A DNA stretch of 64,000 nucleotides, taken from NCBI RefSeq assembly GCF_029210485.1, contig NZ_JARGET010000005.1, positions 310,001-374,000 on the forward strand, given 5' to 3'. The notes beneath the pieces were generated by a model. The model had not been told where the DNA came from. It worked only from the letters and a program-made list of their open reading frames with translations, and did no database searches. Origin of the DNA: Hoeflea sp. YIM 152468. GTDB lineage: Bacteria > Pseudomonadota > Alphaproteobacteria > Rhizobiales > Rhizobiaceae. This document shows positions 31,588 through 47,529 of the stretch, piece by piece. The position numbers and the translations under genes are program-made. Within the stretch, counting starts at the first letter, position 1, and every line of letters begins with the position of its first letter.

Positions 31588-31875
31588 TCATTGAGGAACG
31601 GACACGCTGACCTTCTTCGGCCGCTCATTGCCTTTGCCCGGCACCAGCACGGTGATGACGCAGACCACCTGACCGCCTTTGGTTTGCGCGGCGGCCGACA
31701 ACAGCTGTCCACCGGTCTGGCTTACCACCTGGTTGGCAGCGCCCGAGCAGTCGGCTGTAACACGGTCGATGGCGGTGCCATCGGGTGCGCGCAAGTCCGG
31801 CCCTGCGGATGCGACCGGCGGAGCCATCGCGACCTGCACTGCCAGAAGCCCAATACTGAGAATATTCACGGTCAT
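31588..31875 (-). CDS. feuN: Small periplasmic protein, probable FeuN
   Basis: A 95-residue protein with a signal peptide (about 1-24, ending ASAGPDL) and a mature part of about 70 residues with two cysteines (DCSGAA, VVCVITVLV). In Sinorhizobium a small periplasmic protein, FeuN, is encoded directly upstream of feuPQ and restrains FeuQ. This gene has the same place, size and export signal. I did not compare sequences, so the name is by context. The start at 31875 is chosen because the signal peptide begins there. Confidence 0.55.
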   Translation of the reverse strand: MTVNILSIGLLAVQVAMAPPVASAGPDLRAPDGTAIDRVTADCSGAANQVVSQTGGQLLSAAAQTKGGQVVCVITVLVPGKGNERPKKVSVSVPQ

Positions 31876-31977
31876 GATCTGCCCTGAAGCGGTTGGTATC
31901 TTATCTTGGACCCAGTGATACAAGATCCTGCCTGAACCGCAAATGAATGACTGCCGGGGCAAGGCCGGTCAAGTGTG

Positions 31978-32184
31978 TCAGCCGATCCGGTGCTTTGCAG
32001 CGAGACGCCCGATGATGGCGACAAGTCCGCCCAGCGTGGCGCCGAGCGCGCTCAAAAGATCGATCAGCGCTTCGCGGTCGGCATCGCCGAGATCGATCCC
32101 GGCGAGACCAAGCGCGCTGGCGGCCAGCGTGACAATGGCGCCCCACAGGGTTCGGGACCGCCACCAGGGTTTGATATCGGTCAT
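31978..32184 (-). CDS. Small membrane protein, holin-like
   Basis: A 68-residue protein with two predicted membrane helices (about 11-28 and 42-60) and a charged Arg/Lys/His-rich C-terminus (GRLAAKHRIG). The start WWRSRTLWGAIV resembles small membrane proteins found with phage lysis genes, so a holin is plausible. It is 30 bp downstream of g15 on the same strand and has a strong RBS (AAGGAG seven bases before 32184). In Rhodobacter capsulatus the GTA lysis genes lie elsewhere, so a holin at the end of the main cluster would be different. No lysozyme-type endolysin is adjacent. Confidence 0.55.
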   Translation of the reverse strand: MTDIKPWWRSRTLWGAIVTLAASALGLAGIDLGDADREALIDLLSALGATLGGLVAIIGRLAAKHRIG

Positions 32185-32214
32185 GGCTACACTCCTTTTC
32201 AAGGTGGTTGCAGT

Positions 32215-35200
32215 TCAAATCTGACAGGTTTGAGTCCGTGCCGTTCCCCAGGGCAGATGTTTCCCCGCCTGAGCCACGCGGAAGCTCAGTGCGCTCTGGC
32301 TGCCGCCGAAATCGGCGATTTCGTCAGCGGCCGGATAGAGCCAGCCGGGCGTTGTGGTTTCAGCGGTCCGCATCACGGTGCCGGCCTTGAGTATGTCGAT
32401 CCGGTAGCGCTCGAAGCCCTCGTCATTGCCGATCTCCGCCGGCGCCCAGCTGTCGGCCGCGAGCCGGCCGCGCCGTATCCATGACAGGGCAACGCCGTCG
32501 AGCTGCCGTCTGGCGCGCAAATGCACCGGCGACAGCGGCATCAGGGCTCGCTCGCCACCGGCAAAGGTGACCGGCGCCGCCCCGCCACTGACGCCACTGG
32601 CGGCTTCCGCGATCCAGTTGAATTCGCGCCCTGCGTCATCAAGCGAAAGCCCCAGCGGCTTGATCGCCCCGTCAAGAACCAGCAAGCGTGCGCCCTGGGA
32701 GGCGCCGGCGCGCATCGCGTCATCGGTTCCGGCCTGGCCGCGCAGCAGGTTTTGCAGCCGCCACCGGCCAGCCGAAATTTCCTCGGCGGTCTCGAACTGA
32801 ACGATTTCCCAGGCGTCGGCATCGGAGCTGATCGCCACTGCATTTGCGCCATTGAGCACCGACAGCCGGCTGGCTGTGGACAACCCGCCGGACGCCAGGT
32901 CCACGACAATCGAAGCGCCTGGGTCAAACCGGCCTTCGCTATCACCGGGTGGCAAGGCCGCGGCGAGGCTGCCGATTTTCGCCGGTGCCTCCAGCGTGGC
33001 GCGGGCGGCATAGCCCTCCGCTTCCACCGAACTCGACAGCACGACCGGACGCCAGGGGACGCCGAGCGCCCCGGCTCTGGCCCACCCGGTCTCGGTGGAA
33101 CCAGACAGGACCGGCAGATCGGCAAAGACAACCTCCGGCGCAAAATGGGCATTGGCATCATTCGCAGATCGCGGCGTCAGCGTCTCGTCGATGGCACCCG
33201 CCGCCGCACCCGCATGCGCGACAGCCTCGATGCGGCGGACGTCGCCATCTTCGGTGCGGGCGATGCGGTAGAGGTTTGTTGGCGCCTCTTCCAGGGCGAA
33301 GCGGACCGTGTCGCCCGGTTGAAGCCGGACTGCCTGCGGCGGCAGGGCGAACCGAACCTGTCGCCGCTGCAGCCGATGATCATGCAGCCAGCGGTCCGCA
33401 GTCACACGGGCCAGTCCCGGCTCGAGCGCCAGGCCCAGCGGCAGGTCGCGCTGGCGTTGCGGCTCGCCTTCGAGACGACGTGAGCGCGCCGACGCCGCGG
33501 CGTAGTCGTTCAACGGATCGGCAAAAAGGATCATGGCCTCATTGGCAAAGCCGCTGGCCTCGCCGCGGATCTCCTCAAACAACGGCCCGGCATCGGGGTC
33601 AGCCACCAGATCAAGTGTCCGTGGTGCCGCGCCAAGCTGCAAGCGGGAAACGAAATCGAGACCATTGGCACTTTCGCGCACATCAATGGCAAAAGCCTCG
33701 GTCAGGGGCTGCAGCACCGCACGCGGCGACGCCGGGCTGGCGATCACGTGCCCGCTCACCATGCCGTCGACCCGGTCGACGTTGAAACTGGTCATGCCCG
33801 CTTCCGTCAGAACGGCGGCGATCAGGTCCTTGAGCGCCACCGTGCCCAGACGGCCGTTGAGCCAGTGACCGGTGCGCCAGTTGGGGCCATCGGACCAGAT
33901 CTGCGACGACAGTGGAAACGCCGGAAAAGGCCGGGCATCCCAGGTCCAGATATGGATATGGTCGCCGGCCACCATGCCATCGGCATTTGCCGGGCCGGCC
34001 CAATACTCGAGATGAGCCTGCAAAAAGGCGCGCTGACAGAGATCGTCACGACCACCGCTCGAATACCAGGGGAGTGCTGCTTCCGACGATTTCGGATCGG
34101 GAAACAGATTGGGCTGGTTGGCCCCCTTGTCCACCGCAGGGCAGCCGAGTTCGGTCAGCCAGAACGGTTTCGAACCTGGCACCCAGGGGCTCGGGCTTGC
34201 AGCCTCGAGGCCGCCGGTCCGGTCGAAATGCTGGTTCTGCCACCAGCCGCGCAGATCCTTGATCCGGTAGAGCCAGTCCTTGCCCGCAAGCCCGTCGCTG
34301 ATCGGGAGCCGCTGACGGGCGTCGCGGCCCGGCTTGTCGGCATAATACCAGTCATAGCCCTCGCCGCCGGTGATGGCCGCACGCATCGCCTCCGGATCAT
34401 TGGCAAATCTGGCGCCGTCGGGATTGCCCGCCGTCAGGTCGCCATCGCGCCAGTCGCTGAGCGGCATGTAATTGTCGATGCCGACGACCCCGATGGCCGG
34501 ATCCGCCCACAGCGGATCGAGATTGAAAAAGACGTCTCCTGATCCGTCATCAGGGCGATAGCCTGCATATTCGCTCCAGTCGGCGGCATAGGTCACCGTC
34601 GTTTGCCCGCCAAGCAGCGCTTTCGTCTCCGCCGCCAGCTGGATCAGCTGTTCGACGAAGGGAAACGCGCCGGTGTCATCGCGCAACCGCGTCAGCCCCT
34701 TCATTTCCGAGCCGATGATAAATCCGTCAACGCCGCCAGCCGCGATAGCCAGGCCCGCATGATGCAGAACCAGCCGCCTGTAGCCCTCATCGCCACCGGT
34801 CCAGGTGACACTGTCGCCGGAGACAACCAGATCCGACACCAGCGTTTCGCCACACAGGCTGTCGATCTCGGTACGCATCATCGCGGTGCCGTCCGGCGAT
34901 CCGGGCAAGCCGGGTGCTGGCAACGCCGTGATGCGGCCGCGCCAGGGATAAACCGGCTGGCTTTGAGCGCCACCCGGATCAGGCAGGCCATTGCCCGCGG
35001 GCACATCCATCAGCACGAAGGGGTAGAGCACCACTTTCAGCCCGCGCGCCTTGAGATCGCGGATCGCCTCGATGACAGCGGTATCGTCGGGGGTGCCGCC
35101 ATAGGCCGGGCCGCCGTCGGCCTTGCGGCTGACCAGATGCGCCGTGCCGCGGTCGAGCGAGCCAACCTTCCAGGGCCGGGTCTCGTCGGTTCTGGCGACA

Positions 35201-36066
35201 ACCTCGACACCGGGGCGAAAGCGGCAATGGCCGGCACGCAGATCATCACCGAACCAGGAGGAGACCAGTGCCATCGATTTGAGATTGGGACACAGGGCCT
35301 GCAATTCGTTGATGGATTGGCTCCAGTCGGTCGAGGCCTGACGCATGTTGCGGTTGAGCACCCGTGCCGACCCCAGGCCCAGGGTCTCGCGCACCGGTGT
35401 GGTGGCATAGCCATGTTCGGTCGAGCCGGGAATGATCGCCACCGCCTCGATCGCCGGTTCCAGCGGGCCCACGGGCCGGACCACCTCGAAATGCAGGGCG
35501 GGGATGCGGTTGCCGAAATCATCCAGCGGCAGCCGCTCGAACACCACATAGGCAAGGCCGCGCCAGGCCGGCACGCGGCCTGCCCCCTGTTTGGCCTCGA
35601 TCAGCGGATCGGGCAATTGCGTCGCGGTTCCGTGATAGATCCGCATCTCGAATGTCTCGAGATCGAGTTCGCGCCCGTCGGCCCAAACCCGTCTGACAAA
35701 GGCAATCGGGCCTTCGCACAGGCCGAGCGCAAAATTGGCATGGTACTGATAGCTCTCGACCTTGGGCCCCCTGCCCTTGCCGCCCTGACGTTGCTGCGTC
35801 ACGGTCTCCTCAAAGCGCGTCGCCCAGATCAGCGTTCCGGCGATCCGCATCGCACCATGGACCCTGAGAACCGGCGAGCCTTCGTCTGCCGAGGGTATGC
35901 GCGCACCGCTCAGACCCCGGCCACGCACGGTGCGTGTGGCGTTGATCAGGCTCATGTCAAGCATGCCGCCGACGGTGGCGCCGAGCGCCGACCCGAGCGC
36001 GGTGCCGACCGGGCCGAAGACGCCGCCGAGGGCTGCACCCGCCACCTGCAGAAGAAGTGTCGCCAT
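32215..36066 (-). CDS. GTA g15: tail tip/host-specificity megaprotein
   Basis: A 1283-residue homologue of GTA gp15, which forms the tail tip (megatron) that contacts the host. The N-terminal ~60 residues are Gly/Ala-rich and hydrophobic (GAALGGVFGPVGTALGSALGATVGG). A TIM-barrel/glycoside-hydrolase-like domain lies roughly at 430-750 (for example LYPFVLMDVPAGNG to the GRDDLCQRAFLQAHLEYWAG region). Beta-rich phage-tail and carbohydrate-binding modules follow. The length matches other alphaproteobacterial GTA g15 proteins. It follows g14 with 23 bp between them. The exact host ligand is unknown. Confidence 0.9.
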   Translation of the reverse strand: MATLLLQVAGAALGGVFGPVGTALGSALGATVGGMLDMSLINATRTVRGRGLSGARIPSADEGSPVLRVHGAMRIAGTLIWATRFEETVTQQRQGGKGRGPKVESYQYHANFALGLCEGPIAFVRRVWADGRELDLETFEMRIYHGTATQLPDPLIEAKQGAGRVPAWRGLAYVVFERLPLDDFGNRIPALHFEVVRPVGPLEPAIEAVAIIPGSTEHGYATTPVRETLGLGSARVLNRNMRQASTDWSQSINELQALCPNLKSMALVSSWFGDDLRAGHCRFRPGVEVVARTDETRPWKVGSLDRGTAHLVSRKADGGPAYGGTPDDTAVIEAIRDLKARGLKVVLYPFVLMDVPAGNGLPDPGGAQSQPVYPWRGRITALPAPGLPGSPDGTAMMRTEIDSLCGETLVSDLVVSGDSVTWTGGDEGYRRLVLHHAGLAIAAGGVDGFIIGSEMKGLTRLRDDTGAFPFVEQLIQLAAETKALLGGQTTVTYAADWSEYAGYRPDDGSGDVFFNLDPLWADPAIGVVGIDNYMPLSDWRDGDLTAGNPDGARFANDPEAMRAAITGGEGYDWYYADKPGRDARQRLPISDGLAGKDWLYRIKDLRGWWQNQHFDRTGGLEAASPSPWVPGSKPFWLTELGCPAVDKGANQPNLFPDPKSSEAALPWYSSGGRDDLCQRAFLQAHLEYWAGPANADGMVAGDHIHIWTWDARPFPAFPLSSQIWSDGPNWRTGHWLNGRLGTVALKDLIAAVLTEAGMTSFNVDRVDGMVSGHVIASPASPRAVLQPLTEAFAIDVRESANGLDFVSRLQLGAAPRTLDLVADPDAGPLFEEIRGEASGFANEAMILFADPLNDYAAASARSRRLEGEPQRQRDLPLGLALEPGLARVTADRWLHDHRLQRRQVRFALPPQAVRLQPGDTVRFALEEAPTNLYRIARTEDGDVRRIEAVAHAGAAAGAIDETLTPRSANDANAHFAPEVVFADLPVLSGSTETGWARAGALGVPWRPVVLSSSVEAEGYAARATLEAPAKIGSLAAALPPGDSEGRFDPGASIVVDLASGGLSTASRLSVLNGANAVAISSDADAWEIVQFETAEEISAGRWRLQNLLRGQAGTDDAMRAGASQGARLLVLDGAIKPLGLSLDDAGREFNWIAEAASGVSGGAAPVTFAGGERALMPLSPVHLRARRQLDGVALSWIRRGRLAADSWAPAEIGNDEGFERYRIDILKAGTVMRTAETTTPGWLYPAADEIADFGGSQSALSFRVAQAGKHLPWGTARTQTCQI

Positions 36067-36089
36067 GATGATGTCTCTCGTTTTGTCCG

Positions 36090-36524
36090 TCAGGGGAACC
36101 GGTGCACCGCCGCGATCCGCCGCCGCCAGGAAGTGACCAGCACGCTTTCGATCACTCCGGCCGGTTCATAGGCATGAATGAAATGGTCGGGGCCGGAGAG
36201 AATGCCGGCGTGCTTGGCCATCATCCCGTCGCGCCAGCGAAACAGGATGATGTCGCCTGCCCGCGCGTCCTGGATCGGAATGGAATTGCCGCAATGCCGC
36301 CGCGCCGCCAGGATCAGCCGGTCGGTTCCAGATCGCTCGGCCCAGTCGGGCGCATAGGGGCCCGGCTCTTCAGCCTGCCGACCGGTGACCTCCCTGTAGA
36401 CACCGCGCACCAGGCCGAGGCAATCGCAGCCGGCACCCTTCTGCCCGCCCTGATGACGATAGGGTGTCCCGATCCAGGCGCGCGCCGCGTCGACAATGGC
36501 CTGCCCCGCGTCCGCGCCGCTCAT
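36090..36524 (-). CDS. GTA g14: NlpC/P60 cell-wall peptidase
   Basis: A 144-residue NlpC/P60 cysteine peptidase. Catalytic residues appear as C35 in GCDCLGLVRG and H105 in MAKHAGIL, with a third polar residue in HFIHAYE. In RcGTA gp14 is the tail-tip peptidase that cuts peptidoglycan during DNA entry. The start overlaps the g13 stop by four bases (ATGA). Confidence 0.92.
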   Translation of the reverse strand: MSGADAGQAIVDAARAWIGTPYRHQGGQKGAGCDCLGLVRGVYREVTGRQAEEPGPYAPDWAERSGTDRLILAARRHCGNSIPIQDARAGDIILFRWRDGMMAKHAGILSGPDHFIHAYEPAGVIESVLVTSWRRRIAAVHRFP

Positions 36525-37411
36525 GGCACGATTGGACGGCCATCATGGACCGTGTCTGAATCGGCATATCCGTAAGCAAAATCGCTGCCGGGCAGGAATG
36601 GAAAACCCTGAAAATTGAATCCGTTGGCGAACTTGGCTGAACAGGCTTCATATGACTTGTCACAGCCGGCGGAGACGTGCATCCGGTCGCCCGGCGCGGG
36701 CAACCGCGCCAGCGGCGTCCACAGCCCAAGCCGCGCACCGGCGGCCTCGACCGCGTGGCTGGAGATGTCGAACGACACGCCTGACAGCAAACCCGACGTG
36801 AAGCGGAGGTGGCCGTTGTCGAACCAGGCTGCCGGCCTGTCCTCAACACCGCTGACAATCAGCGTCATCTCATCGATGACTTCGACAAGGGTGCCGGTCA
36901 GCCTGAATGGTGGGGCTGAAAAATCCTTGCCACAGCGTCCGTCGCCCAAATCAGCATCGCACCGCCGCCCGTACAGCCGACCATGCGGCTGGTCGAGCCG
37001 AGCCGCCAGACTGCGCAGCTCGGCGCTGAACGCCGGTCCGGCAGCACGCACCTCCCCCAGTTCCCGGGTCGACAACAAGGCGTGATCGGAGGGCGTTTGC
37101 CAATTGACCAGAAAGGTCTCGACCCGGGCACCATCATAGCGCCCCAGCGCCAGGTCGTCGCTGCTGATCGCCGCATCGGAGAAGGCCCCGGCCACACTGG
37201 CGGCGTCGGCCTCGAGCCCCAGCCCGGTTTCCACCTCGCTGGCGCGAAACCCGGTGGCGGCGGAAAACACCGTTCCATCGAATTCGAGCGTGTGGTCATG
37301 CTCGGTAAAACCCAGCACCAGGCCATCGGTCCGGGTCAGCCGCCAGGCATGGCAGATCGTCGTCGATGTCTGGGCCAGATGGGCGCTCAAGGTTTGGGAA
37401 ATCTCCCTCAT
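36521..37411 (-). CDS. GTA g13: tail hub protein (DUF2163)
   Basis: A 296-residue homologue of the GTA gp13 hub (phage BR0599/DUF2163 family). It begins with HLAQTSTTICHAWRLTRTDG and shows the conserved ARLDQPHGRLYGRRCDADLGDGRC, whose cysteines may bind an iron-sulfur cluster as proposed for such hub proteins. Its C-terminal part has the conserved HVSAGCDKSYEACSAKFAN. It overlaps g12 by four bases. Confidence 0.9.
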   Translation of the reverse strand: MREISQTLSAHLAQTSTTICHAWRLTRTDGLVLGFTEHDHTLEFDGTVFSAATGFRASEVETGLGLEADAASVAGAFSDAAISSDDLALGRYDGARVETFLVNWQTPSDHALLSTRELGEVRAAGPAFSAELRSLAARLDQPHGRLYGRRCDADLGDGRCGKDFSAPPFRLTGTLVEVIDEMTLIVSGVEDRPAAWFDNGHLRFTSGLLSGVSFDISSHAVEAAGARLGLWTPLARLPAPGDRMHVSAGCDKSYEACSAKFANGFNFQGFPFLPGSDFAYGYADSDTVHDGRPIVP

Positions 37412-38049
37412 GGCTTGATCTCCAGCAATGGCACATTCGGCACCGACCCCGCCTTGAAGGCCGCCAGGCTGATTTCGATGCGGTCGGTGTCAAAGCGCAC
37501 CGGAATGTCGAATTCATAGCCAGCCGTCACCACCCCCCCGGGCGCAGGAACAACTGCCGCCGCAATCGTCACCAGCCCGGCAGTGTGATCGACCGCGTAA
37601 TCGCCCGGGTCCAAAACCAGGCCGTCAATTGCCAGCACGACGCTGCCCTCACCGGGTTTTTCAATCCGGCGAACAGTCGCCCCGCCGGCGTCAGCATAGG
37701 TCTTGCTGAGGTCAAACTGGGCCTGGATCCCGTCGCCGGTCCCAATCTGCTGGTCGATGGCTGTAACCGCCTGTCCCGGCGGGCAGGAAGCGTGATCGAC
37801 CGGATCGCGGAACCGGAACCCGTAGAGCTGGCCGCGCCGCGCTTCGAAAAACGCGGTCAGTTCGTACAGATCCCCGAGACTGCGCAAACCGGTGCCCACG
37901 TCATAGCGCCGCCGCGCATCGGCCCAGCGCGCATTGCGGGTTTCGCCACCATTCGACAGCGCCACGATATCGGTGCGCCGGCCCGGCCCGCCGCTGGCGC
38001 TGAGCGACAGACGCAGCGGAAAGCGGACCTCATGAAAGCCGTTGGTCAT
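37408..38049 (-). CDS. GTA g12: distal tail protein (DUF2460)
   Basis: A 213-residue homologue of GTA gp12 (TIGR02217/DUF2460), the distal tail protein joining tube and hub. The opening GFHEVRFPLRLSLSASGGPGRRT is the family signature, followed by the conserved LYGFRFRDPVDH block. The start at 38049 (ATG) is preferred over the GTG at 38058 because AAAGGTGA lies five bases upstream of the ATG. It overlaps g13 by four bases. Confidence 0.9.
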   Translation of the reverse strand: MTNGFHEVRFPLRLSLSASGGPGRRTDIVALSNGGETRNARWADARRRYDVGTGLRSLGDLYELTAFFEARRGQLYGFRFRDPVDHASCPPGQAVTAIDQQIGTGDGIQAQFDLSKTYADAGGATVRRIEKPGEGSVVLAIDGLVLDPGDYAVDHTAGLVTIAAAVVPAPGGVVTAGYEFDIPVRFDTDRIEISLAAFKAGSVPNVPLLEIKP

Positions 38050-38063
38050 CACGTTCACCTTTG

Positions 38064-38648
38064 CTACAAGCCACGCCGGCCACGGCCAACGGCGCGGGCC
38101 AGCATGGCCGTCACCTGCGCCTCGGATTTTGAAAAGCTTGCCGCATCGGGCGTCGTCACGTTGAAGGTCACCTGGACCGCCGGCGCCGCATTGTCCGCGG
38201 CAACACCCAGCCGCCCGTCGGACCCACGCTGCAGCGGCAGGATTGCTTCCGCACCCGCTTCGCCCATCAGCCCGACATCGCCACCCTGGATTGGAAAATA
38301 CGAAGGCCCGCCGACCACGCCGCCATCAGCAAATTGCGTCAGACGGCCGGGCACGCCGCCATTGGCAAAGGGCAGCAGCCGGCCCAGATTTGCCGACAGG
38401 CCGGCAATCGAGCTGCTTATCAACTGGTCGAGCGGCTTCATCCCCGCATCTAGCGCAATGCCGACCATGCGCGCGCCCAGTGTGCGCAACACATCATCGA
38501 GCTTGCGGCCGTCCACGGTCGCCGATTTCAACGCACCCGACAGCGCGCCGCCAAAGGCATCAGCCTTTTGTCTGAGCTCATAAAGCGCCTGATCAGCGCC
38601 GTTGAGATTCAGATCGACATCAACCTCGAAGTTCGGCTCATCGGTCAT
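38064..38648 (-). CDS. GTA g11: short tape measure protein
   Basis: A 194-residue homologue of GTA gp11, the short tape measure that fits the short GTA tail. It has a coiled N-terminal half (DQALYELRQKADAFGGAL and an amphipathic helix) and a glycine-rich middle (FANGGVPGRLTQFADGGVVGG and GGDVGLMGEAGAEAILPL), which is common in tape measure proteins. The short length fits a short tail. It overlaps the next gene (g10.1) by 11 bp. Confidence 0.88.
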   Translation of the reverse strand: MTDEPNFEVDVDLNLNGADQALYELRQKADAFGGALSGALKSATVDGRKLDDVLRTLGARMVGIALDAGMKPLDQLISSSIAGLSANLGRLLPFANGGVPGRLTQFADGGVVGGPSYFPIQGGDVGLMGEAGAEAILPLQRGSDGRLGVAADNAAPAVQVTFNVTTPDAASFSKSEAQVTAMLARAVGRGRRGL

Positions 38649-38865
38649 CGGTTTTGTCCTTTGCAGATCGGGTGTCGGGAAACAGCGCCATCAGCGCCTC
38701 CAGCCCTTGCCGATTGGTGAGAGTTGGCGCCTCGGCTGCGCCCGTCAGCGCGCTGAGTTCGGGCACACTCAACCGCCAGAACTGGTCGGGAGGCAGCCGC
38801 AGGCGGCCAAGGCCGAAACGGATCACGGACGCCCAGGGGAACAACGTCCGGTCCGGCTCCGTCAC
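38638..38865 (-). CDS. GTA g10.1: tail assembly chaperone
   Basis: A 75-residue protein of the Phage_TAC type (PF09550-like by position and pattern: FGLGRLRLPPDQFWRLSVPEL). It sits between the g10 gene and the tape measure gene, the place of tail assembly chaperones that load the tape measure protein. It overlaps both neighbours by 4 and 11 bp. Confidence 0.85.
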   Translation of the reverse strand: MTEPDRTLFPWASVIRFGLGRLRLPPDQFWRLSVPELSALTGAAEAPTLTNRQGLEALMALFPDTRSAKDKTDDR

Positions 38866-39275
38866 CTTATTGCCGCCTGCGGCCCGGGAGGGTTTTGCCG
38901 GTCGTCGGCAACCGGCTCCTCCCGATCTGATGCTGTGAGTGCAGTCGCGCCGGCGGGCTCGCCGTCAAAACTCGCCCACAGCAGTTCGGTGGCAATCCGG
39001 GCGAAGCCACTCACCCCGCCCTCGGTCGACATCTGGGCCACATCCTCGTCGCTGAGCCGGTTTCCCGCGCCGCGCAATCCGGCGCCAACGATGCGGATGA
39101 TGTCGCTGGCCGAAAGCCGGCCTGCCGCGAACCGGCCCGCCAGATCGGCAAGGTTATCGACACCAAAGCCACTTTCCAGCTCGGCCAGTGCGCCAAGCGT
39201 CAGGCACAACAGTCGGGTCTCGCCATCGAAGATCGCCGCGATTTCGCCGCGATGGCGATTGGGGTGAACAGGCAT
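38862..39275 (-). CDS. GTA g10: tail protein/chaperone family
   Basis: A 137-residue homologue of GTA gp10. The visible core is HRGEIAAIFDGETRLLCLTLGALAELESGFG followed by DLAGRFAAGRLSASDIIRIVGAGLRGAG, the PF11836-type pattern. In RcGTA this protein is linked to tail assembly. The start at 39275 is preferred (GAGG five bases upstream), leaving 7 bp to g9; a start at 39296 would overlap g9. Confidence 0.85.
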   Translation of the reverse strand: MPVHPNRHRGEIAAIFDGETRLLCLTLGALAELESGFGVDNLADLAGRFAAGRLSASDIIRIVGAGLRGAGNRLSDEDVAQMSTEGGVSGFARIATELLWASFDGEPAGATALTASDREEPVADDRQNPPGPQAAIR

Positions 39276-39282
39276 GGCCGCC

Positions 39283-39690
39283 TCACGCCGCGGCAAAGCT
39301 GAGCGCGCCAGCCGATTCCAGCGCGATCTCGAAGGTCATCTCGCCATCGTGACGTCCGGAATATTCGAGTGCTGTGATCTGGAACGGCCCGGTGACGGTG
39401 CCAAAATCCGGGATCGCCACCTGCCAGGCGCGGATCTCGGTGGCAAAGAACACGCTTCGTGTCAGCGCGTCGCTGATCTGATCCTTGAACAGCCCGCCGC
39501 CCGACAGCGACGCCCGCTGCATCCCGGCGCCGCCGAGCAATTCGCGCCAGCGCCCGGCGGATTCGGCGTCGGTGATGTCAACGGCCTGCGCGTTGAAGGC
39601 CAGCCGCCGGACACGCAAGCCGGCGATGGTGACGAAATTCCCGCCATCATCGATCTTGATGAGCAGGTCCTTGCCTTTCTGGGCGGTCAT
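39283..39690 (-). CDS. GTA g9: major tail tube protein
   Basis: A 135-residue tail tube protein of the TP901-1/GTA gp9 type. It has beta-rich sequence with VDITDAESAGRWRELLGGAG, a family hallmark, and GPFQITALEYSGRHDGEMTFEIALESAG at the C-terminus. In RcGTA it polymerises into hexameric rings around the tape measure. It lies 49 bp after g8. Confidence 0.92.
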   Translation of the reverse strand: MTAQKGKDLLIKIDDGGNFVTIAGLRVRRLAFNAQAVDITDAESAGRWRELLGGAGMQRASLSGGGLFKDQISDALTRSVFFATEIRAWQVAIPDFGTVTGPFQITALEYSGRHDGEMTFEIALESAGALSFAAA

Positions 39691-39739
39691 CGAAATGTCC
39701 TTTCCATCTGCTGGTGTGGATTATCGGCGCGCCGCGCGA

Positions 39740-40138
39740 TCACGGCTCGGTCACCGCGCGAAACCGCAGCTGCGCCAGATGCAGCCCGGTCTTGGGCGCC
39801 CGGCGGCTGACGGTTCTTTCGTGGCGGAGATTGATCAGCACCGCGCCCTCGAGCGACAGAGCGGCGTCATGCAGAGCGGCGCGCACCGCAGCGGCCAATT
39901 CGACCGCCTGTTTGCGGCCGTTCTGCTTGCTCCAGGCCTCGATCTGAAAGCGATGTTCGCTGGCATCCTCGTCACCACTGGAAAAATCTCTGGTCGTCAT
40001 CTCGCCCAGCACCAGATAAGGCGGCTCGGCGCGGCTGATCAGCCGGTCGAATATCCGCCCGGCGCCGATGATCGCAATCACATCCGGGTCAGAGCCCAGA
40101 TGCGCGACCACCGCTTTCTGCAAGGCATTGGCGCTCAT
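39740..40138 (-). CDS. GTA g8: tail terminator (DUF3168)
   Basis: A 132-residue protein of the DUF3168 family, homologous to GTA gp8, the tail terminator at the neck. The N-terminal helix ANALQKAVVAHLGSDP and the strand PYLVLGEMTTRDFSS are typical. The start at 40138 overlaps the g7 stop (ATGA). Confidence 0.87.
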   Translation of the reverse strand: MSANALQKAVVAHLGSDPDVIAIIGAGRIFDRLISRAEPPYLVLGEMTTRDFSSGDEDASEHRFQIEAWSKQNGRKQAVELAAAVRAALHDAALSLEGAVLINLRHERTVSRRAPKTGLHLAQLRFRAVTEP

Positions 40139-40473
40139 GGCAGGCTCTCCTCGCATTCGCAGACCAGATAGCGCCGGGTCTCGTCCGGATCACGCGACGC
40201 GCGGATTTCCAGAGTGCGGCCGCGATGGACAAAGCGCATGGCGTGCCGCACATCGTCGCGATAGCGGATGGTGACGCGATGGATGACCGGCGCCATCGCT
40301 GCACCTGCGGTCTCACGCGAGCCGGCGCGCAGCGGTTCAATCCGCCCCCACAGGGTGGCAACAGGCTCCCAGTTCCCGGTCACGCCGCCCTGACCGTCGG
40401 TCAGCTGCGCAGGCGCTTCGAGCAGCAGCCGGGCGCTCAGACAGCCGGCATCGACAAACAACGCCGCCATCAC
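40135..40473 (-). CDS. GTA g7: head closure/stopper protein
   Basis: A 112-residue head-tail joining protein (phage head closure family), homologous to GTA gp7. The pattern GGVTGNWEPVATLWGRIEPL with HRVTIRYRDDVRHAMRFVHRGRTLEI is characteristic. The start is GTG at 40473, or the adjacent ATG at 40470; both overlap the g6 stop. Confidence 0.87.
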   Translation of the reverse strand: MMAALFVDAGCLSARLLLEAPAQLTDGQGGVTGNWEPVATLWGRIEPLRAGSRETAGAAMAPVIHRVTIRYRDDVRHAMRFVHRGRTLEIRASRDPDETRRYLVCECEESLP

Positions 40474-41036
40474 AACGCCCGCCTTTGCCAGGGACCGATC
40501 AGTCGGTCGTAGCCCGCCGGAATGGAAGCCGGTTGCATGTCCGCGGTCACAGCGCCGCGGAATTCATAAAGATGCGCAGAATGGATCAAAATCGCCCGCT
40601 TCAGTTCAGGCGGCACTTCGGCTGCAGTGTTGAAACCGGCGGTAAACTCGATCTCGATACCGTTGATCGGCTGGCTCGGACGTGTCCGGTCCCGCACCAC
40701 CAGCCGCGCCGGATGCGCCGTGCCGTCGAGCAGCAGGCCGGAGAGGTCGAGGTTTTGCTCCACGCCATCGGCGTCATAAAGCAGAATCGCATCAACGGTT
40801 TGCACCGGCGTTCTCATCAAGGGAATCACCTCGCTGCGTGGCCAGTCATCAAGCACCAGGCGAAAGCTCTGGCTCATCAAGGCCATGCCGGTGGCTGCTT
40901 CGAGATGGGCGCGAGCCACCCGGATCAGGCCTTCGAGCAGATCGTCTTCATCGCTCGCATCGATGCGCAGATGCGCTTTCACCTCGGCGAGCGTCACCGG
41001 TTCCGCCAGCGGCGGATCGGTCTGGATTAAGGTCAT
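40470..41036 (-). CDS. GTA g6: head-tail adaptor
   Basis: A 188-residue connector of the phage gp6/phiE125 gp8 type, homologous to GTA gp6. It starts with PVTLAEVKAHLRIDASDEDDLLEGLIRVARAHLEAATG, the classical N-terminal helices of connector proteins. It joins the portal to the stopper. An 86-bp gap with a palindromic repeat separates it from the capsid gene. Confidence 0.9.
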   Translation of the reverse strand: MTLIQTDPPLAEPVTLAEVKAHLRIDASDEDDLLEGLIRVARAHLEAATGMALMSQSFRLVLDDWPRSEVIPLMRTPVQTVDAILLYDADGVEQNLDLSGLLLDGTAHPARLVVRDRTRPSQPINGIEIEFTAGFNTAAEVPPELKRAILIHSAHLYEFRGAVTADMQPASIPAGYDRLIGPWQRRAL

Positions 41037-41071
41037 GGCAGTCTCCGGGATCAGGAAGCGTCTGGGGAAAA

Positions 41072-41099
41072 TCCCTCCCCCGGCTGACCGGGAGAGGGT
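41072..41099. repeat. Palindromic repeat between g5 and g6
   Basis: A GC-rich hairpin (CCCTCCCCCGG...CCGGGAGAGGG) lies in the short gap of the GTA cluster. It resembles the hairpin at 43150 and could act as an RNA processing site. Confidence 0.5.
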
Positions 41100-41122
41100 T
41101 GGCTCGGAAGGAACGCACTCCG

Positions 41123-42367
41123 TCAGGCGGCGAATTTCAGCAGCTTGATCGCCTCGAAATTCTGCACCCCGCCACCGACACGCTTGGTGGTGTAAAACAG
41201 CACAAAGGGCTTGGCCGAATAGGGATCGCGCAGGATGCGCACCCCGGTGCGGTCGACCACCAGATAGCCACGGCGGAAGTCACCGAAAGCGACCGAGGCA
41301 GCGTCGGCGGCGATGTCGGGCATATCCTCGGCCTCGACCACCGGGAAGCCCATCAGCGAGGCCTGCTGCCCCGCGCCGGCCGGTGGCATCCAGAGATAAT
41401 TGCCATCGGCATCCTTGAACTTGCGGATCTGGCTTTGGGTCTTGCGGTTCATCACAAACCGCCCGTTCTGACGATGTCCGGCCTTCAGCGCATAGATCAG
41501 TTCGACCAGCCGGTCCGACGGATCGACGCCAAACGCACCCGCGGCCCCGGTGGCAATATGGCCGAGATTGCCCCAGCTCCAGCTGGCGTCGGCAACGCTG
41601 GGGTAATCGAGGAAGCCGCGCGGCTTGTTGGCCCCGTCGCCCGCCACAAACGCCGCCCCCTCCTGCTCGGCAAAGGCGGCCTCGACTTCGGCGGCGATCC
41701 AGCCCTCGATGTCGAGCGCTGCGTCCTCGACCAGCGAAGCGGTGGCGGCCGGCATGGCGTAAAGCTCCATGGTCGGAAACTGCAGCTCGGCCAGTTGCGG
41801 CGCCGCCGTCTGCGGCCGTGCGTCGGTTTCGCCGACCCAGCCGGTGGCCATGCCGTCCAGGGCAAAGGGCTTTTTCAGCACTGCGCCGGAGACCTGCCGC
41901 ACCGTGGCAATCGAGCGGATCGGTGACAGCTCCGACAGTCGCCTGCCGATGTCACTGTCGAGCTCGTCGGGCACCAGGTAGCCGCCGTCGGCATCGCTGC
42001 CCGCCGACATCGCCTTCAGCTCCGCCTGGCGCAGCCCGGCCTCGTCGCCGCGCCGGACATAGGCGTCAAAGGCCTGGCGAACCGGGCTGGGCGCAGCGCC
42101 GTTGCCGCGCCCAAGGTCGGGACGGGCGCGTTTGACCAGCAGCGCATCAAGCGCACGTTTCTGCTCATCGAGAGCTGTATCGATGCGCGCCATCTTCTCG
42201 TCGGTGATCACATCAGCGCCGCCGCGCCGCTCGATCTCGGCCAGCCGCTCGTCATTGGATTGCTTGTAGTGCTCAAACGCGGACAGGAAGTCCTCGAAAG
42301 CGGCGGAAACATCAGCGTCGACGCTCTTGGTTTCCGGCGCAGGCTGGGTTTTGCAATGCGAAGTCAT
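41123..42367 (-). CDS. GTA g5: HK97-fold major capsid protein
   Basis: A 414-residue major capsid protein of the HK97 fold. Residues about 1-90 form a coiled scaffold-like delta domain (FEHYKQSNDERLAEIERRGG, DEQKRALDALLV), which the protease normally removes. The core follows, with MSAGSDADGGYLVPDELDSDI, the P-domain helices and GFPVVEAEDMPDIAADAASVAFGDFRRGYLVVDRTG. In RcGTA it builds the small oblate head. The start at 42367 has AAAGGA upstream. The frame is open for another 52 codons upstream, up to the TAG that ends g4, so protease and capsid are in one frame. Confidence 0.95.
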   Translation of the reverse strand: MTSHCKTQPAPETKSVDADVSAAFEDFLSAFEHYKQSNDERLAEIERRGGADVITDEKMARIDTALDEQKRALDALLVKRARPDLGRGNGAAPSPVRQAFDAYVRRGDEAGLRQAELKAMSAGSDADGGYLVPDELDSDIGRRLSELSPIRSIATVRQVSGAVLKKPFALDGMATGWVGETDARPQTAAPQLAELQFPTMELYAMPAATASLVEDAALDIEGWIAAEVEAAFAEQEGAAFVAGDGANKPRGFLDYPSVADASWSWGNLGHIATGAAGAFGVDPSDRLVELIYALKAGHRQNGRFVMNRKTQSQIRKFKDADGNYLWMPPAGAGQQASLMGFPVVEAEDMPDIAADAASVAFGDFRRGYLVVDRTGVRILRDPYSAKPFVLFYTTKRVGGGVQNFEAIKLLKFAA

Positions 42368-42529
42368 GGGATGTCCTTTCAACAGGGTGGGTTCGGTAGG
42401 CCGGGAACTGCAAGTCAGCGCACGGGTCAAAGTGCGCAGCTGCTGCTCCAGGCGTTTGAGATCCTCCGGGCCAGCGTCCTGCCTGTCCGAAAGCGCGCCG
42501 TAGCCACGGGCGATCAGCCCGCGCGCCTA
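42368..42529 (-). other. Single in-frame TAG between protease and capsid frames
   Basis: The protease stop is TAG (42527-42529). After it the same frame stays open for 53 codons into the capsid start at 42367, with no other stop. The text after TAG reads ARGLIARGYGALSDRQDAG and then KRLEQQLRTL, which looks like the usual helical C-terminus of HK97-type prohead proteases after LTRDAGLSRR. A G-to-T change of a GAG codon would explain the TAG. Readthrough would give a protease-capsid fusion. Confidence 0.7.
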
Positions 42530-43096
42530 GCGTCGGCTCAGCCCCGCATCCCGCGTGAGCCGGCGTTCAAGTTCGCGTACCGTCAGCACCGGGGCCAGAG
42601 GCAACTTTCCCGCTGCCTTGACGGCGGTCACCCGCGCGCCCGGCTGCATCGGAAACGTCACCACCGAGATCTCCCAGAGATCGGCGCTGAGGATTCGCCG
42701 CACTCCGGCCTTGGCCTCGTTGCGGGCGCGCAGCGTCTGGAATCCGATCGACAGCCCGTCGAGTGCGCCGGACTTCATCAGCGCATGGACTTCGCGGGCG
42801 CGAGCCACGCCGAGAGCCAGCTTGCCTTCCACATGCAGCCCGCGTTGATCCTCGCGGATCGACAGCCAGCGGCCAATCGGCTGATCCGGGTCGTGCTGGT
42901 AGAGCATGCGCACGTCACCGGCGCCGCGGCGCTTGAGCGAAGCGGCGAAGGCGCCGGGCTCGATCACGTCGCGCCCCAGGTCAACCGCGCCGAACAGGCT
43001 GGCATAGCCCGCAAAACTGCCGTCGCCGCTGACGTCCTCCAGTGCCAGATCGACGCGCTTGTGCTGCCGTCCGGATGCGCTCCAGTCGCTTGTCAT
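42527..43096 (-). CDS. GTA g4: prohead protease, C-terminus possibly truncated
   Basis: HK97-type prohead serine protease of 189 residues that matures the capsid. It has AGYASLFGAVDLGRDVIEPGAF at the start of the core, the catalytic histidine in LYQHDPDQPIGRW and serine in DGLSIGF, with the acidic partner in LWEISVVTFPMQPGA. The last helix LTVRELERRLTRDAGLSRR stops abruptly at a TAG. Homologous proteases usually continue with an Ala/Lys-rich helix. It may therefore be a short but active enzyme. The catalytic residues lie upstream of the stop. It is 117 bp from g3.5. Confidence 0.9.
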   Translation of the reverse strand: MTSDWSASGRQHKRVDLALEDVSGDGSFAGYASLFGAVDLGRDVIEPGAFAASLKRRGAGDVRMLYQHDPDQPIGRWLSIREDQRGLHVEGKLALGVARAREVHALMKSGALDGLSIGFQTLRARNEAKAGVRRILSADLWEISVVTFPMQPGARVTAVKAAGKLPLAPVLTVRELERRLTRDAGLSRR

Positions 43097-43149
43097 GGTT
43101 TTATCCTTGCTGTTCTTGAAGTCGATGTTGCCCCGTCAGGGCTTCTAAG

Positions 43150-43170
43150 CCCTCCCGCTTGAGGGGAGGC
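43150..43170. repeat. Palindromic repeat between g3.5 and g4
   Basis: CCTCCC (43151-43156) and GGGAGG (43164-43169) form a short stem in the gap upstream of g4, similar to the hairpin at 41072. Confidence 0.45.
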
Positions 43171-43213
43171 AGACCCTTCGCGGCCGCCCTGCCAAATCGA
43201 GAGGCCGTGAGAG

Positions 43214-43540
43214 CTAGTCTGGGATATCCTTCCCCCGCCCGGTCCTATCGGCAATCCGGGCCAGTGCGCCGAGCGCCCACCAGGCGCTCATGCTGGCGGC
43301 GGCCGATCCGGTCAGCAAGCTTTCGGAGGGTGACAGCATCCCCCTCACCCCCATCCATTGTCCCAGCGCCACACCAACCGGGCCACCAAACACCAGGCCG
43401 CACACGACACCGGCGATGGCGCGGGCCGCAGCCTCACGCACGCCCTTGGGCATCATGTAGACCAGCGAAACCAACGCTCCGGCCAAAGCGCCGGCAATGC
43501 GGGCGGCGGCCATTGCAGGATCGGGATCGATATTCGCCAT
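43214..43540 (-). CDS. GTA g3.5-position small membrane protein
   Basis: A 108-residue protein located between portal and protease, the position of g3.5. It has two Ala/Gly-rich hydrophobic stretches (IAGALAGALVSLVYMMP at about 13-29, and AIAGVVCGLVFGGPVGVALGQW at about 39-60). Small proteins of the DUF6107 type sit here in rhizobial GTA clusters as I recall. The start at 43540 is strongly favoured by GGAGGTGA just upstream. Function unknown. Confidence 0.65.
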   Translation of the reverse strand: MANIDPDPAMAAARIAGALAGALVSLVYMMPKGVREAAARAIAGVVCGLVFGGPVGVALGQWMGVRGMLSPSESLLTGSAAASMSAWWALGALARIADRTGRGKDIPD

Positions 43541-43607
43541 CGCGTCACCTCCGGCGGTCATCCCCGCCTCGCAGATTGATTCAACTGCTTGCGGTCTTGA
43601 ATCCGGT

Positions 43608-44786
43608 TCAGTCCGCAACACGCTGATATCCCACAGCTTCCCGCTTTTCCTCATCGGTCAGGAAATCAGCCGCACCGACCCGCGCCCACAGCCCGTCGCG
43701 TTCGGCAGAAAGCCCCGGCAGCCGGTCGGCGTCATAGTCGATCTTCAGCCCGGCGCCGTGGACTGGCTGCAGCCAGGCGGTCAGGGCTTGCGCCGTGCGG
43801 GCCACCAGCGGCAGCACGGTGAGGCGGCAGAAGGCCCGGTTGGCCTCCTGGTAATTGGCGTAGGTCAGGTCGCCGGGAATGCCCAGAAGCATCGGCGGCA
43901 CACCCAGCGCCAGGGCGATGTCGCGGGCCGCGCCGTTCCTCGCCTCGACGAAATCCATGTCGCGCGGCGTCAGTCCCATCGCCTTCCAGTCGAGCCCGCC
44001 TTCAAGCAGCATCGGCCGGCCGGCGCGGCGGGCGCCCTGATAGCCTTCTTCAAGCTCGGCTTTCAGCCGCTCATATTGCTCCGGTGTCAGATTGCCGCCG
44101 TCTTTCGGCTGATAGACCAGCGCGCCGGATGGCCGGGCGGAATTGTCCAGCAGCGCCTTGTTCCAGTTCATTGCCGCATTGTGCAGATCGAGCGCCATCA
44201 GCGCTGCCTCCAGCGGCGCGAAGCCCAAATGGTCATCGAGCGGATGAAACAGTTTCAGATGCAAGAGCCCCGGCCCGTCTTCCGGGCTCACACCGAAGCG
44301 CTGCCGCCGGCCGCCGGCCTGATGTTCATAGGCGGTGGGCCAGCCGTCCGGTCCGGTGATCACCCGCATCCGGTCCGGCCTGAGCAATTGCAGCCCGGCC
44401 ACTCTTCCACCGGCGTTGACCGGATTGATCCAGGCATTGCCCGAAAGCACAAGGTGGCCATAGAGCGTTTCAAAAAAGCCGGCGCCGGCGCCATTCGGGT
44501 CAGGCCGGCCCAGCAGATCCAGCACCGGATGCCGCTCCTGTTCGCGGCCGCCGTCAAACACCAGCCAGGGCACCGAGGCAGCCGCCTCGGCGATCATCCG
44601 CGTTGCCCTGTGCGCCACCGGATTGCGCATGAAGCCTTCCCGCGCAATGGCCGGGTAAGAGCGCCCGCTCCAGCTTGCGCCCGCGTCACCGGCCAGCGCC
44701 GCAATCGCGCCGGGCAGCCAGCTCTTGGCGGCAGGTGCGCGGTCTCGCGCCGCGCGGGTCCAGGGAAGCCGAAATCCAAATGCCAT
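43608..44786 (-). CDS. GTA g3: portal protein
   Basis: An HK97-type portal protein of 392 residues that forms the dodecameric DNA channel of the head. It shows NPVAHRATRMIAEAAASVPWLVF near residue 55, the conserved LLGRPDPNG(A) and GNAWINPVNAGG in the middle, and FVEARNGAARDIALALGVPPMLLGIPGDLTYANYQEANRAF near 300. It starts at 44786 with AAAGGG upstream. It has 206 bp of repeat-containing sequence upstream. Confidence 0.95.
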   Translation of the reverse strand: MAFGFRLPWTRAARDRAPAAKSWLPGAIAALAGDAGASWSGRSYPAIAREGFMRNPVAHRATRMIAEAAASVPWLVFDGGREQERHPVLDLLGRPDPNGAGAGFFETLYGHLVLSGNAWINPVNAGGRVAGLQLLRPDRMRVITGPDGWPTAYEHQAGGRRQRFGVSPEDGPGLLHLKLFHPLDDHLGFAPLEAALMALDLHNAAMNWNKALLDNSARPSGALVYQPKDGGNLTPEQYERLKAELEEGYQGARRAGRPMLLEGGLDWKAMGLTPRDMDFVEARNGAARDIALALGVPPMLLGIPGDLTYANYQEANRAFCRLTVLPLVARTAQALTAWLQPVHGAGLKIDYDADRLPGLSAERDGLWARVGAADFLTDEEKREAVGYQRVAD

Positions 44787-44856
44787 TGAGTTGCCCTTTC
44801 GGTGTCCGGAATCAAAAAACCGCCTCGGCTGCCCGGGCGGGGTGTGGGTATTTTCC

Positions 44857-44971
44857 CGTCTTCCCGGACTTGATCCGGGATCCAGCGACCCGGCCTCCGC
44901 CGGGTCAGAAGACTCTTATCAACCCAAGGACTTGGGCTGGCTGGATGCCGGATCGGGGTCCGGCATGACGG
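44857..44971. repeat. Large palindromic repeat element, copy A (between g2 and g3)
   Basis: An intergenic element built of a long interrupted outer stem (GATCCGGGATCCAGC at the left, GCTGGATGCCGGATC at the right) enclosing two smaller hairpins, GACCCGGC...GCCGGGTC and CCCAAG...CTTGGG. It could fold as a three-way junction. A related, right-truncated copy lies at 46627. Confidence 0.65.
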
Positions 44972-44992
44972 AATCATTGGATCGCGCCAACA

Positions 44993-46285
44993 TCAAAGAT
45001 GCCGCACCTGCGGTTCGCTTCTGCGGCCGAGCAGCAACTCGGTCAGCGCCCAGACCAGCGCGTCGAGCCGGTCGGGCGAGCGGCCCGAGGACAATCCATC
45101 GGGGCCGAAATCGCACATCTGGTCTTCCAGTGCGCCAAAGTGGCCGGCATGGACCACCCTTCCCTGCTCATAGAGTGCCGCCACCGGTTCGGCGCGCAGC
45201 CACTTTCCGCGCGTCGCCCGCACCTGCCGCACCGGCAGCGCCGGCTCGACGGTCCTGAGCACGCTGGTCACCATGTCGCCGCCCTGGTTGATTTCGGCCA
45301 CCACGCAATCGGCATCGAAGCGGCGGTAAAGCCGCGCTGTCGCTTCGGCCCAGCGGGTCGGGCTTGCGCCCTCGACCGAGCCATCGGCCAGCACCACGGC
45401 GCGGCCATCGGCGTCAAGGCCCGCGGCGATGATGCCGCAGCAGGAATAGCGGGCGGCGCTCGCCGTCGGCGGATCGACCGCGACCACGATGCGGGCAAGC
45501 AGGCCGTGTTTGCGCACCACGAGCGCCTCGAGCTGGTCGCGCCGCCACAACCCGTCCTCGCGGTCGGCAATCAGCTCGCCGTCAAGTTCCTGCCGCCCCA
45601 GCCGGGTGCCGCCATAGCGCGCCCGGATCGCCTCGAGAAACCCCGCCGCCAGATTGGCCGCATTGTCGCCGGTGCTGATCCGCGTCACCCGCGTGGCCGG
45701 GTCTTTCACCAGGGCCAGCATCAGCGGCGTCGCCCGTGGCGTCGTCGTCACCAGTTGCCGTGGCGCTGTCCCGAGCCGCAGGCCAAATTGCAACATGTCC
45801 CAGGTCTCGCGGGCATGCCGCCATTTGCCCAGCTCATCGCACCAGGCGAGATCAAATTGCGGTCCGCGCAGGCTTTCGGGATCTTCCGATGAAAACATCT
45901 GCGCCACCGCGCCTGACGGCCAGACCAGCCGCCGTCGCGTCGCCTCGAAACTCGGGCGCTCGGCACGCGCCACGCCAAGGATGCCCGACACCCCGTCGAT
46001 CATCACCTCGCGGGCATCGCCAAAGGTTTCCGCCACCAGCGCGATGCGGCCATCCCTGCCAAGCCCGGCGATCGCGCCCGAGGCCAATGCGTGCACCCAT
46101 TCGGCCCCGGCCCGGGTCTTGCCCGAGCCGCGCCCGCCCATCAGCAGCCAGGTGCGCCAGGCCCCTTCGGGCGGCAATTGTTCGGGCCGGGCCAGAAACT
46201 CCCAGGCGGTGGCATTCTCGATCAGGGCCGGATCGGCAAGCCGGTCCAGATGCGCCGCGAGAAGCTCGTCGACGGTGTCCGCCAT
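44993..46285 (-). CDS. GTA g2: large terminase (DNA packaging ATPase)
   Basis: A ~430-residue large terminase. The Walker A motif GGRGSGKTRAGAEW is near residue 45. The Walker B strand is FDLAWCDELG with the catalytic acid. The C-terminal nuclease domain follows, with VAVDPPTASAA as one acidic motif and FDADCVVAEINQGGD as another. In GTAs TerL packages headfuls of host DNA. The start is uncertain: 46285 (AAGAG upstream) fits the usual length, 46348 is an alternative, and the frame opens still further upstream. Confidence 0.93.
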   Translation of the reverse strand: MADTVDELLAAHLDRLADPALIENATAWEFLARPEQLPPEGAWRTWLLMGGRGSGKTRAGAEWVHALASGAIAGLGRDGRIALVAETFGDAREVMIDGVSGILGVARAERPSFEATRRRLVWPSGAVAQMFSSEDPESLRGPQFDLAWCDELGKWRHARETWDMLQFGLRLGTAPRQLVTTTPRATPLMLALVKDPATRVTRISTGDNAANLAAGFLEAIRARYGGTRLGRQELDGELIADREDGLWRRDQLEALVVRKHGLLARIVVAVDPPTASAARYSCCGIIAAGLDADGRAVVLADGSVEGASPTRWAEATARLYRRFDADCVVAEINQGGDMVTSVLRTVEPALPVRQVRATRGKWLRAEPVAALYEQGRVVHAGHFGALEDQMCDFGPDGLSSGRSPDRLDALVWALTELLLGRRSEPQVRHL

Positions 46286-46626
46286 GTCGAGACTCTTGCC
46301 ATGCGGAACTGAGTCACCAAACCGCTCTATCTGGTTGTTTTTCAACATCTCTCGACCGCCATCCGGATCCCGCATATCCGGAACCGGGTCACCCCGGTCC
46401 CGATGGCCGGGGTTTGACTCCCGCCGTGGCTGTGGGGCGTAGATCAGGACGCTACGGACTGGCTTTGCATGGCCTGCCCCAGGCCTCGTCCACACCCCAT
46501 ATTTCAGCGCCGCTGCCATCGACCGGATTGTCATGCGTCACTCTCCTGCCGGCCACCTAGTCCACGGGATTATTCTGAGTCGGGTCATCTCCCCCTCCAG
46601 CTCCGTCACGCCGGCACCCACCCCAC

Positions 46627-46710
46627 CGTCTTGCCGGACACCGATCCGGCATCCAGCGACCCGGCGTCTGCCGGGTCAAATCACTCTCTTCAGCCCACGT
46701 CCTTGGGCTG
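46627..46710. repeat. Palindromic repeat element, copy B (between g1 and g2)
   Basis: It matches copy A at 44857 over the left arm (GCCGGACACCGATCCGGCATCCAGC) and both inner hairpins, ending at CTTGGGCTG. The right arm is missing, apparently because it abuts the g1 stop. Both copies are in the same orientation and bracket the terminase gene. Confidence 0.6.
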
Positions 46711-46722
46711 ATGAAAATGCTT

Positions 46723-47340
46723 TCATCCAGCCTCGTCCCGACCCGTAGCACCTGCTTCCGCTTCTTCACCGGCATCTGCCTCGCCAATAGGCTCATCGCC
46801 ACCTTCACCCTGACCCTGACCCTGACCCTGGCGCTGCGCCGCCAGCCGCTCGGCGGCGGCGAGGATCAGTTGCCGCACGGTCTGCCTGAGTTGGTCGCGT
46901 TCTTCGCCGGTCAGGGCTGTGGCAGCGGCGCGGGCCTCGTCCTCGGCAATCAGCCGCTCCATCTGGTCGATCTTTTCCAGCGTGCGGGCGATCAAGGCCA
47001 CCTGATCGACCGCCGCCTTGCCTTCCAGCCCGTCGCAGCCGAGCCGGGCCGCTTCGCGGTCGAGCACGGCGCGCATCCGCCGGAGCATCTCGCGGGTGCT
47101 TTCGGCCGACAGCCCGGCGCCACCGCCCACTACCTCGGGCCCAGTCGTCTCGGGCCCAGCCTGCTCGGACCCGGCCGGATCATCCGCGCCGGAGGGCTCG
47201 CGCTGCTTGAACTCGAACGGCTCCAGCGCCAGCACCAGATCGATCAACCGGTCAATCAGCCCGGCCTCGCCCACAGCCGGCGCAGGCCGGTCCGGTCCCG
47301 ACAGCATAACTCGCCCGGCACCGCCACAGGTCTCGGTCAT
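46723..47340 (-). CDS. GTA g1: small terminase
   Basis: A 205-residue protein in the g1 position. Its central helical part (LSAESTREMLRRMRAVLDREAARLG and IARTLEKIDQMERLIAEDEARAAA) has a coiled-coil pattern suited to oligomerisation. The C-terminus is low-complexity (QRQGQGQGQGEGGDEP, then acidic). In RcGTA gp1 is the small terminase. The start at 47340 has GCGAGG seven bases upstream and replaces a longer possible frame to 47511. First gene of the GTA operon. Confidence 0.8.
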   Translation of the reverse strand: MTETCGGAGRVMLSGPDRPAPAVGEAGLIDRLIDLVLALEPFEFKQREPSGADDPAGSEQAGPETTGPEVVGGGAGLSAESTREMLRRMRAVLDREAARLGCDGLEGKAAVDQVALIARTLEKIDQMERLIAEDEARAAATALTGEERDQLRQTVRQLILAAAERLAAQRQGQGQGQGEGGDEPIGEADAGEEAEAGATGRDEAG

Positions 47341-47383
47341 CAAAGCCTCGCAATGTCCACAATTCGCATCCGATCCGGCCACC

Positions 47384-47415
47384 AAAAAAGCGCCCCGGAC
47401 ACTCCAGAGGCGCTT
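47384..47415 (-). terminator. Terminator-like hairpin in the GTA leader
   Basis: A 7-bp stem AAGCGCC/GGCGCTT with a 14-base loop is followed on the minus strand by Ts (A84-A87 on plus). It lies only 44 bp before the g1 start and downstream of the promoter-like sequence. It could attenuate GTA transcription or end a short upstream RNA. Confidence 0.5.
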
Positions 47416-47487
47416 GGCGCTAAGATCAATTTTCAAACGGCATAGCCGCCTCGTCACACCGGTCCGGACCTTATGGAAACCCGCTCC

Positions 47488-47509
47488 TGTCCGGCACCGT
47501 GTCCGGCAC
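47488..47509. repeat. 10-bp direct repeat in the GTA leader
   Basis: TGTCCGGCAC occurs at 47488-47497 and 47500-47509, spaced by one helical turn plus two bases, just downstream of the promoter-like sequence. A further GGTCCGGACC palindrome lies at 47461-47470. This may be a protein-binding site. Confidence 0.4.
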
Positions 47510-47529
47510 ATTTCTGTGACGATGACATA

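Follow-up and report, generated by a model that had tools for sequence, protein, structure and literature searches.

Gene content of the locus

The stretch of DNA considered here (the window, 64,000 nucleotides of Hoeflea sp. YIM 152468) lies on contig 36 of a draft genome of 4.27 Mb in 40 contigs, and carries on its minus strand, at positions 30777 to 47511, a head-tail cluster of the RcGTA type together with downstream genes, as judged from profile matches and from alignment to a related stretch (L056). Read from 47511 down to about 30777, the cluster comprises terminase, portal, protease, capsid, connector and tail genes, and with L056 as the source of the queries, g2 to g15 were all found in order. 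The protease gene g4 (42530 to 43096, minus strand) encodes an HK97-type prohead protease of the Peptidase_S78 family (PF04586, E 1.3e-34; TIGR01543, E 8.3e-36); it is the sole PF04586 match in the genome in a profile search at E 0.001, and a search for solved structural relatives of its product returned none at E 0.1. The major capsid gene g5 (41123 to 42367, minus strand; PF05065, E 5.1e-91) follows with its own ATG and Shine-Dalgarno sequence, its product being closest among solved structures to the RcGTA capsid Rcc01687 (6tba/6tb9, E 6e-95; next best 4.8e-50). Further along, a distal tail protein of the Rcc01695 type scores above the cut-off of TIGR02217, and the tape-measure profile NF058675 (RcGTA_tape) is matched over positions 51–218 of 220 at 162.5 bits, below its cut-off of 220. 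The source is a marine bacterium, and the cluster would encode a domesticated phage-like DNA-transfer particle.

The rest of the cluster appears intact. Fourteen GTA genes of the window were checked for internal stops, and none was found in the 13 other than g4 (g2, g3 and g5–g15). Aligned with a relative, a longer reading of g3.5 contains one stop; given that the frame is open from 43654 onward, this stop must be located upstream of that position. When the same genes were followed in 14 related stretches, seven (one of them L056, the query source) had g2 to g15 complete and unflagged, four (L057, L058, L059 and L066) had all genes present with some flag, and three (L060, L061 and L065) had genes absent, L060 and L065 being short contigs. 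Matches to g2 in L059 (G003) and to g9 in L058 (G004) are split over two overlapping pieces, whether through genuine frameshifts or through errors of assembly. In g8 of L065 (G008) there is an internal stop, at alignment position 77 of 138, so Hoeflea has other cases of sporadic GTA lesions or of draft errors. The relative's protein that aligns with 30780–31463, downstream of g15, has another match in the window, at positions 20048–20710 outside the cluster (43% identity).

The TAG codon and the frame beyond it

On the minus strand, g4 runs from 43096 to 42530 (189 codons) and is terminated by a TAG at 42529–42527, after which 53 sense codons (42526–42368) lead, in register, to the capsid ATG at 42367. 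The earlier note had described exactly this arrangement, and both its coordinates and its description proved correct; a single uninterrupted frame of protease and capsid is absent from the window, since the TAG intervenes. Comparison among Hoeflea-type sequences divides the open stretch into a 34-codon protease tail (42425–42526), whose frame is intact and which would go untranslated if the TAG terminates, and a 19-codon linker (42368–42424) that reaches the capsid start and contains an internal Shine-Dalgarno sequence, AAAGGA. Taken alone, 53 open codons are no departure from chance: when the 159 nt following the TAG were shuffled by base, the frame remained open in 29% of 20,000 trials. The open stretch becomes meaningful because of the relatives, in which the 34-codon tail changes in a coding manner and 26 of 31 junctions are open.

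Comparison with Hoeflea-type relatives

Among the matches listed, the named records closest to the protease were mostly from Hoeflea. A search of the genus covered 18 genomes, including the window's own, and gave a match in 16; from the 15 other matching genomes, 14 orthologous stretches were taken, G005 being left out (the region is missing from its protease, and the sequence downstream gave no capsid motif). To these were added 24 of 25 Hoeflea-like IMG/VR loci (L177–L200, from the best 80 of 406), the remaining one, L201, ending before the site. Removal of seven exact repeats from the resulting 39 sequences left 32, that is, the window and 31 others, several of which are near-duplicates, making the independent number smaller than 32.

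At the position of the TAG, all 31 other sequences have CAG and none has a stop. A GAG ancestor, and with it the single G-to-T change from which the earlier note had derived the TAG, is thereby ruled out; with CAG in every relative, the change must have been C-to-T. The idea that the relatives' proteases might all end at this position likewise found no case among the 31: in each, the frame extends at least 41 codons beyond the site, and g4 of the window is shorter than every one of their proteases. Among the sequences compared, the TAG is seen in one genome only, and two exact-pattern scans of viral contigs for a conspecific copy of the locus returned none.

In 26 of the 31 relatives there is no stop between protease and capsid, so that g4 and g5 form one frame; the remaining five (L059, L062, L063, L189 and L190) have a stop between the two. 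One of the natural fusions, L097, has its protease domain at residues 26–162 and its capsid domain at 260–652. Because no stop separates g4 from g5 in these fused relatives, translation that begins at g4 must yield a fusion. In L061 (G014, a MAG), the fused frame ends 421 codons past the site, compared with about 470, and g6–g13 were not found, possibly owing to a broken MAG contig.

Origin of the one-frame arrangement

In a FastTree phylogeny of protease plus capsid, the 26 fused relatives group with the window in one clade (local support 0.99), adjoined by L059 (0.76), the root having been placed at L063 by choice and the position of the window within the clade being poorly resolved; L061, with its broken capsid frame, forms a long branch. 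In L059 the protease is terminated by a TGA overlapping the Shine-Dalgarno sequence of the capsid gene, and the capsid lies in another frame, with a spacing that differs by one base. Outside the genus, 124 loci drawn from the best 80 matches of each listing reduced to 104 distinct ones, none of which is fused: each has a stop no more than 127 codons from the active-site-region motif, none ends just after the L-[STN]-R motif, and most are without the helical hairpin discussed below. Since none of these 104 loci is fused, fusion is the derived state and the TAG a later event. The simplest history suggested by these sequences would be that one frame change in the linker joined the two frames, and that the TAG arose afterwards in the lineage of the window.

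One-frame protease-capsid genes also occur independently at two more loci in Hoeflea genomes other than that of the window, L021 (G004) and L022 (G010), probably prophages, where the capsid ATG again has a Shine-Dalgarno-like stretch. A search for further fusions among long open frames gave none in G044 and G037, which stop after the protease core, and in the long frames of G079 and G181 no capsid motif was recognised by eye in the sequence that they run into or from.

Signs of selection on the joined frame

Parsimony changes in the 34-codon tail, counted on 25 of the 27 fused-clade sequences, number 38, 32 and 81 at codon positions 1, 2 and 3, and this third-position excess rules out chance openness as the sole explanation for the protease tail. 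The tail corresponds to two helices in the model of L097, at moderate to low confidence. The linker is less clear-cut. Its codons 35–48 (the 14 before AAAGGA) show 4.4, 2.8 and 4.9 changes per site at positions 1, 2 and 3, again in 25 of the 27 sequences. Stops fall within it in frames 0, 1 and 2 in 0, 6 and 12 of the 27 sequences, respectively, and none of the 27 has a frame-0 stop upstream of AAAGGA; in a neutral simulation at a matched rate, the probability of no stop in any of 25 sequences was 0.06 (kappa 2) or 0.11 (kappa 4). Two length changes in the linker (L064 and L184) are both multiples of three, a chance of 1 in 9. These patterns suggest selection on the fused frame, while chance openness of the linker is also compatible with them.

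The internal capsid start is strongly conserved. AAAGGA upstream of the capsid ATG is present in all 27 fused-clade sequences, and on the tree codons 50–51 are unchanged (25 of 27 sequences). This internal AAAGGA together with the ATG would allow the capsid to be made alone; in the fused relatives, free capsid is very probably produced from the internal start in addition to the fusion, judging from this conservation.

Likely effect of the TAG codon

Residue 160, upstream of the TAG, is the last one covered by the Peptidase_S78 match. In the AlphaFold model of L097, the residue equivalent to the TAG, 188, is the third of a helix spanning 186–199, which is followed by a helix at 208–226. Model confidence (mean pLDDT 53) is 83–92 in the protease core, residues 31–150, and 40–75 across residues 171–230; the model is good only for the protease core, and nothing rests here on its capsid part. 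With the moderate to low confidence that this permits, truncation would take away the larger part of the first helix and the whole of the second, leaving half a hairpin. The damage from such a cut is uncertain, since some natural proteases are about as short or shorter. Among the loci compared, many GTA-like proteases of Rhizobiaceae are without the hairpin, and in two, L347 (G044) and L349 (G037), the chain stops as soon as the catalytic core is complete, so that hairpin and terminal helix are both missing. From these sequences, the C-terminal module of the protease looks optional. L119–L176 and similar Rhizobium/Agrobacterium loci have no LTRDAGL hairpin, and most of them keep a short terminal helix.

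As regards age, the 34-codon tail of the window has no private base relative to 24 other sequences, whereas the next 14 codons and the preceding 30 have two each; because private synonymous bases are likewise lacking in the tail, this has low power as an age test and tells little about selection. That the TAG is young is indicated mainly by its absence in the relatives.

Of the options put forward in the earlier note, recent truncation is the best supported, given that no relative stops here, and readthrough is without positive support. We consider it probable that a recent nonsense substitution turned CAG into TAG in a fused-clade genome whose GTA cluster is otherwise intact, with maturation plausibly impaired; the TAG codon, its absence in the relatives, the intact surroundings and the clade are the observed basis. 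The proposed course of events would be as follows. In the Hoeflea clade, g4 and g5 form one continuous frame, and ribosomes starting at g4 would make a protease-linker-capsid fusion, while the conserved internal Shine-Dalgarno sequence and ATG would permit free capsid. The genome of the window, within this clade, would then have gained a single CAG-to-TAG change in the C-terminal helical region of the protease. Termination there would yield a free protease of 189 residues, without its last helices and without a link to the capsid, and capsid would come solely from the internal start. Impairment of GTA head maturation is the least certain step.

The nearest rival agrees with this account on the mutation and differs only in its consequence, so that their probabilities overlap: the TAG would be real but harmless, the short protease working and the GTA being productive with separate protease and capsid. 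The end of the Peptidase_S78 match upstream of the TAG and the many hairpin-less Rhizobiaceae proteases, with G044 and G037 ending right behind the core, favour a harmless TAG, but the cut falls three residues into the predicted helix 186–199, leaving half a hairpin in a model of moderate confidence, and the continuation of the frame in all 31 Hoeflea-type sequences compared also speaks against it; on balance we think it rather unlikely. Less likely still is an error of consensus or assembly at the TAG, the genome really carrying the one-frame g4-g5 of its relatives. A codon common to no relative, with intact surroundings, in a single draft genome of 40 contigs is what such an error might look like, but a lone substitution inside a contig of 384,964 bases is atypical of it. 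Lone substitutions are not typical consensus errors of deep short-read assemblies, which speaks against an error if this assembly is of that kind.

There is very little chance, in our estimation, that the TAG is leaky by design, with readthrough making a little protease-capsid fusion and setting its ratio to free capsid. The open frame beyond the stop and the tail without private bases would fit, but an intact tail is equally expected from a young TAG. The genome has RF1, and TAG also terminates g3.5 and g11 of the same cluster. None of the 40 tRNAs found in the draft has the anticodon CTA of a suppressor; Ala-TGC and Ile-GAT tRNAs were likewise not found, so the draft is without some tRNAs. 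RNA folding downstream of the TAG is ordinary (z 0.88). Conservation of the stop among relatives, as is looked for in programmed readthrough, was found in 0 of 31, and as no relative has the stop, nothing shows selection for the TAG. Nothing supports programmed readthrough, and a low-level leak is compatible with the data. An elaboration in which the clade would deliver its protease only as an N-terminal extension of minority capsid subunits, co-assembled into the head and cleaved free, while the leaky TAG of the window lowers the dose of fusion and readthrough sets the protease-to-capsid ratio, appears similarly improbable.

Comparison with known systems

If the nonsense substitution stands, the TAG alone would count as a further sporadic lesion of a domesticated phage, and the one-frame gene of the relatives is the more interesting finding: set in an otherwise standard RcGTA-type cluster beside relatives with separate genes (L059, L062, L063, L189 and L190), it offers a natural comparison of fused with separate delivery of the protease during head maturation. 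Should particles still be made by the strain, this would show how little of the protease C-terminus suffices. In the HK97 scheme, the protease is packaged with the N-terminal region of the capsid protein and then removes that region.

The window resembles RcGTA in its capsid, in its TIGR02217 distal tail protein and in the order g2–g15, and differs from it in the one open frame of g4 and g5 of the Hoeflea clade, broken in the window by the TAG, and in its sub-threshold tape-measure score. Excerpts of the RcGTA structure paper refer to residues 99–106 from the capsid N-termini, and the word protease is absent from its main text (PMC7296036); we infer that the first residues of the RcGTA capsid are cleaved off.

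Fusions of protease and capsid in phages (NF045541; PHROG 617) likewise join an N-terminal protease and a C-terminal HK97 capsid in one chain. The profile phrog_617 matches the L097 fusion (residues 41–651) as well as the protease and the capsid of the window, each alone. In contrast, three natural Hoeflea fusions have no match to NF045541 at E 0.001, and the protease of the window reaches 31.4 bits, far under the cut-off of 525. In Methylobacterium nodulans ORS 2060, according to one report, the prophage-associated clusters LC2 and LC3 have RcGTA-like genes, and their capsid gene is longer and includes a protease domain (PMC11409702); there, that gene lies ahead of the portal gene (PMC11409702), whereas Hoeflea keeps the order portal, protease, capsid. 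A fused g4-g5 in a Hoeflea GTA was not reported in the literature searched, by titles and abstract openings. Protease-capsid fusions are already familiar from phages and from clusters that contain RcGTA-like genes, and Hoeflea is a further case.
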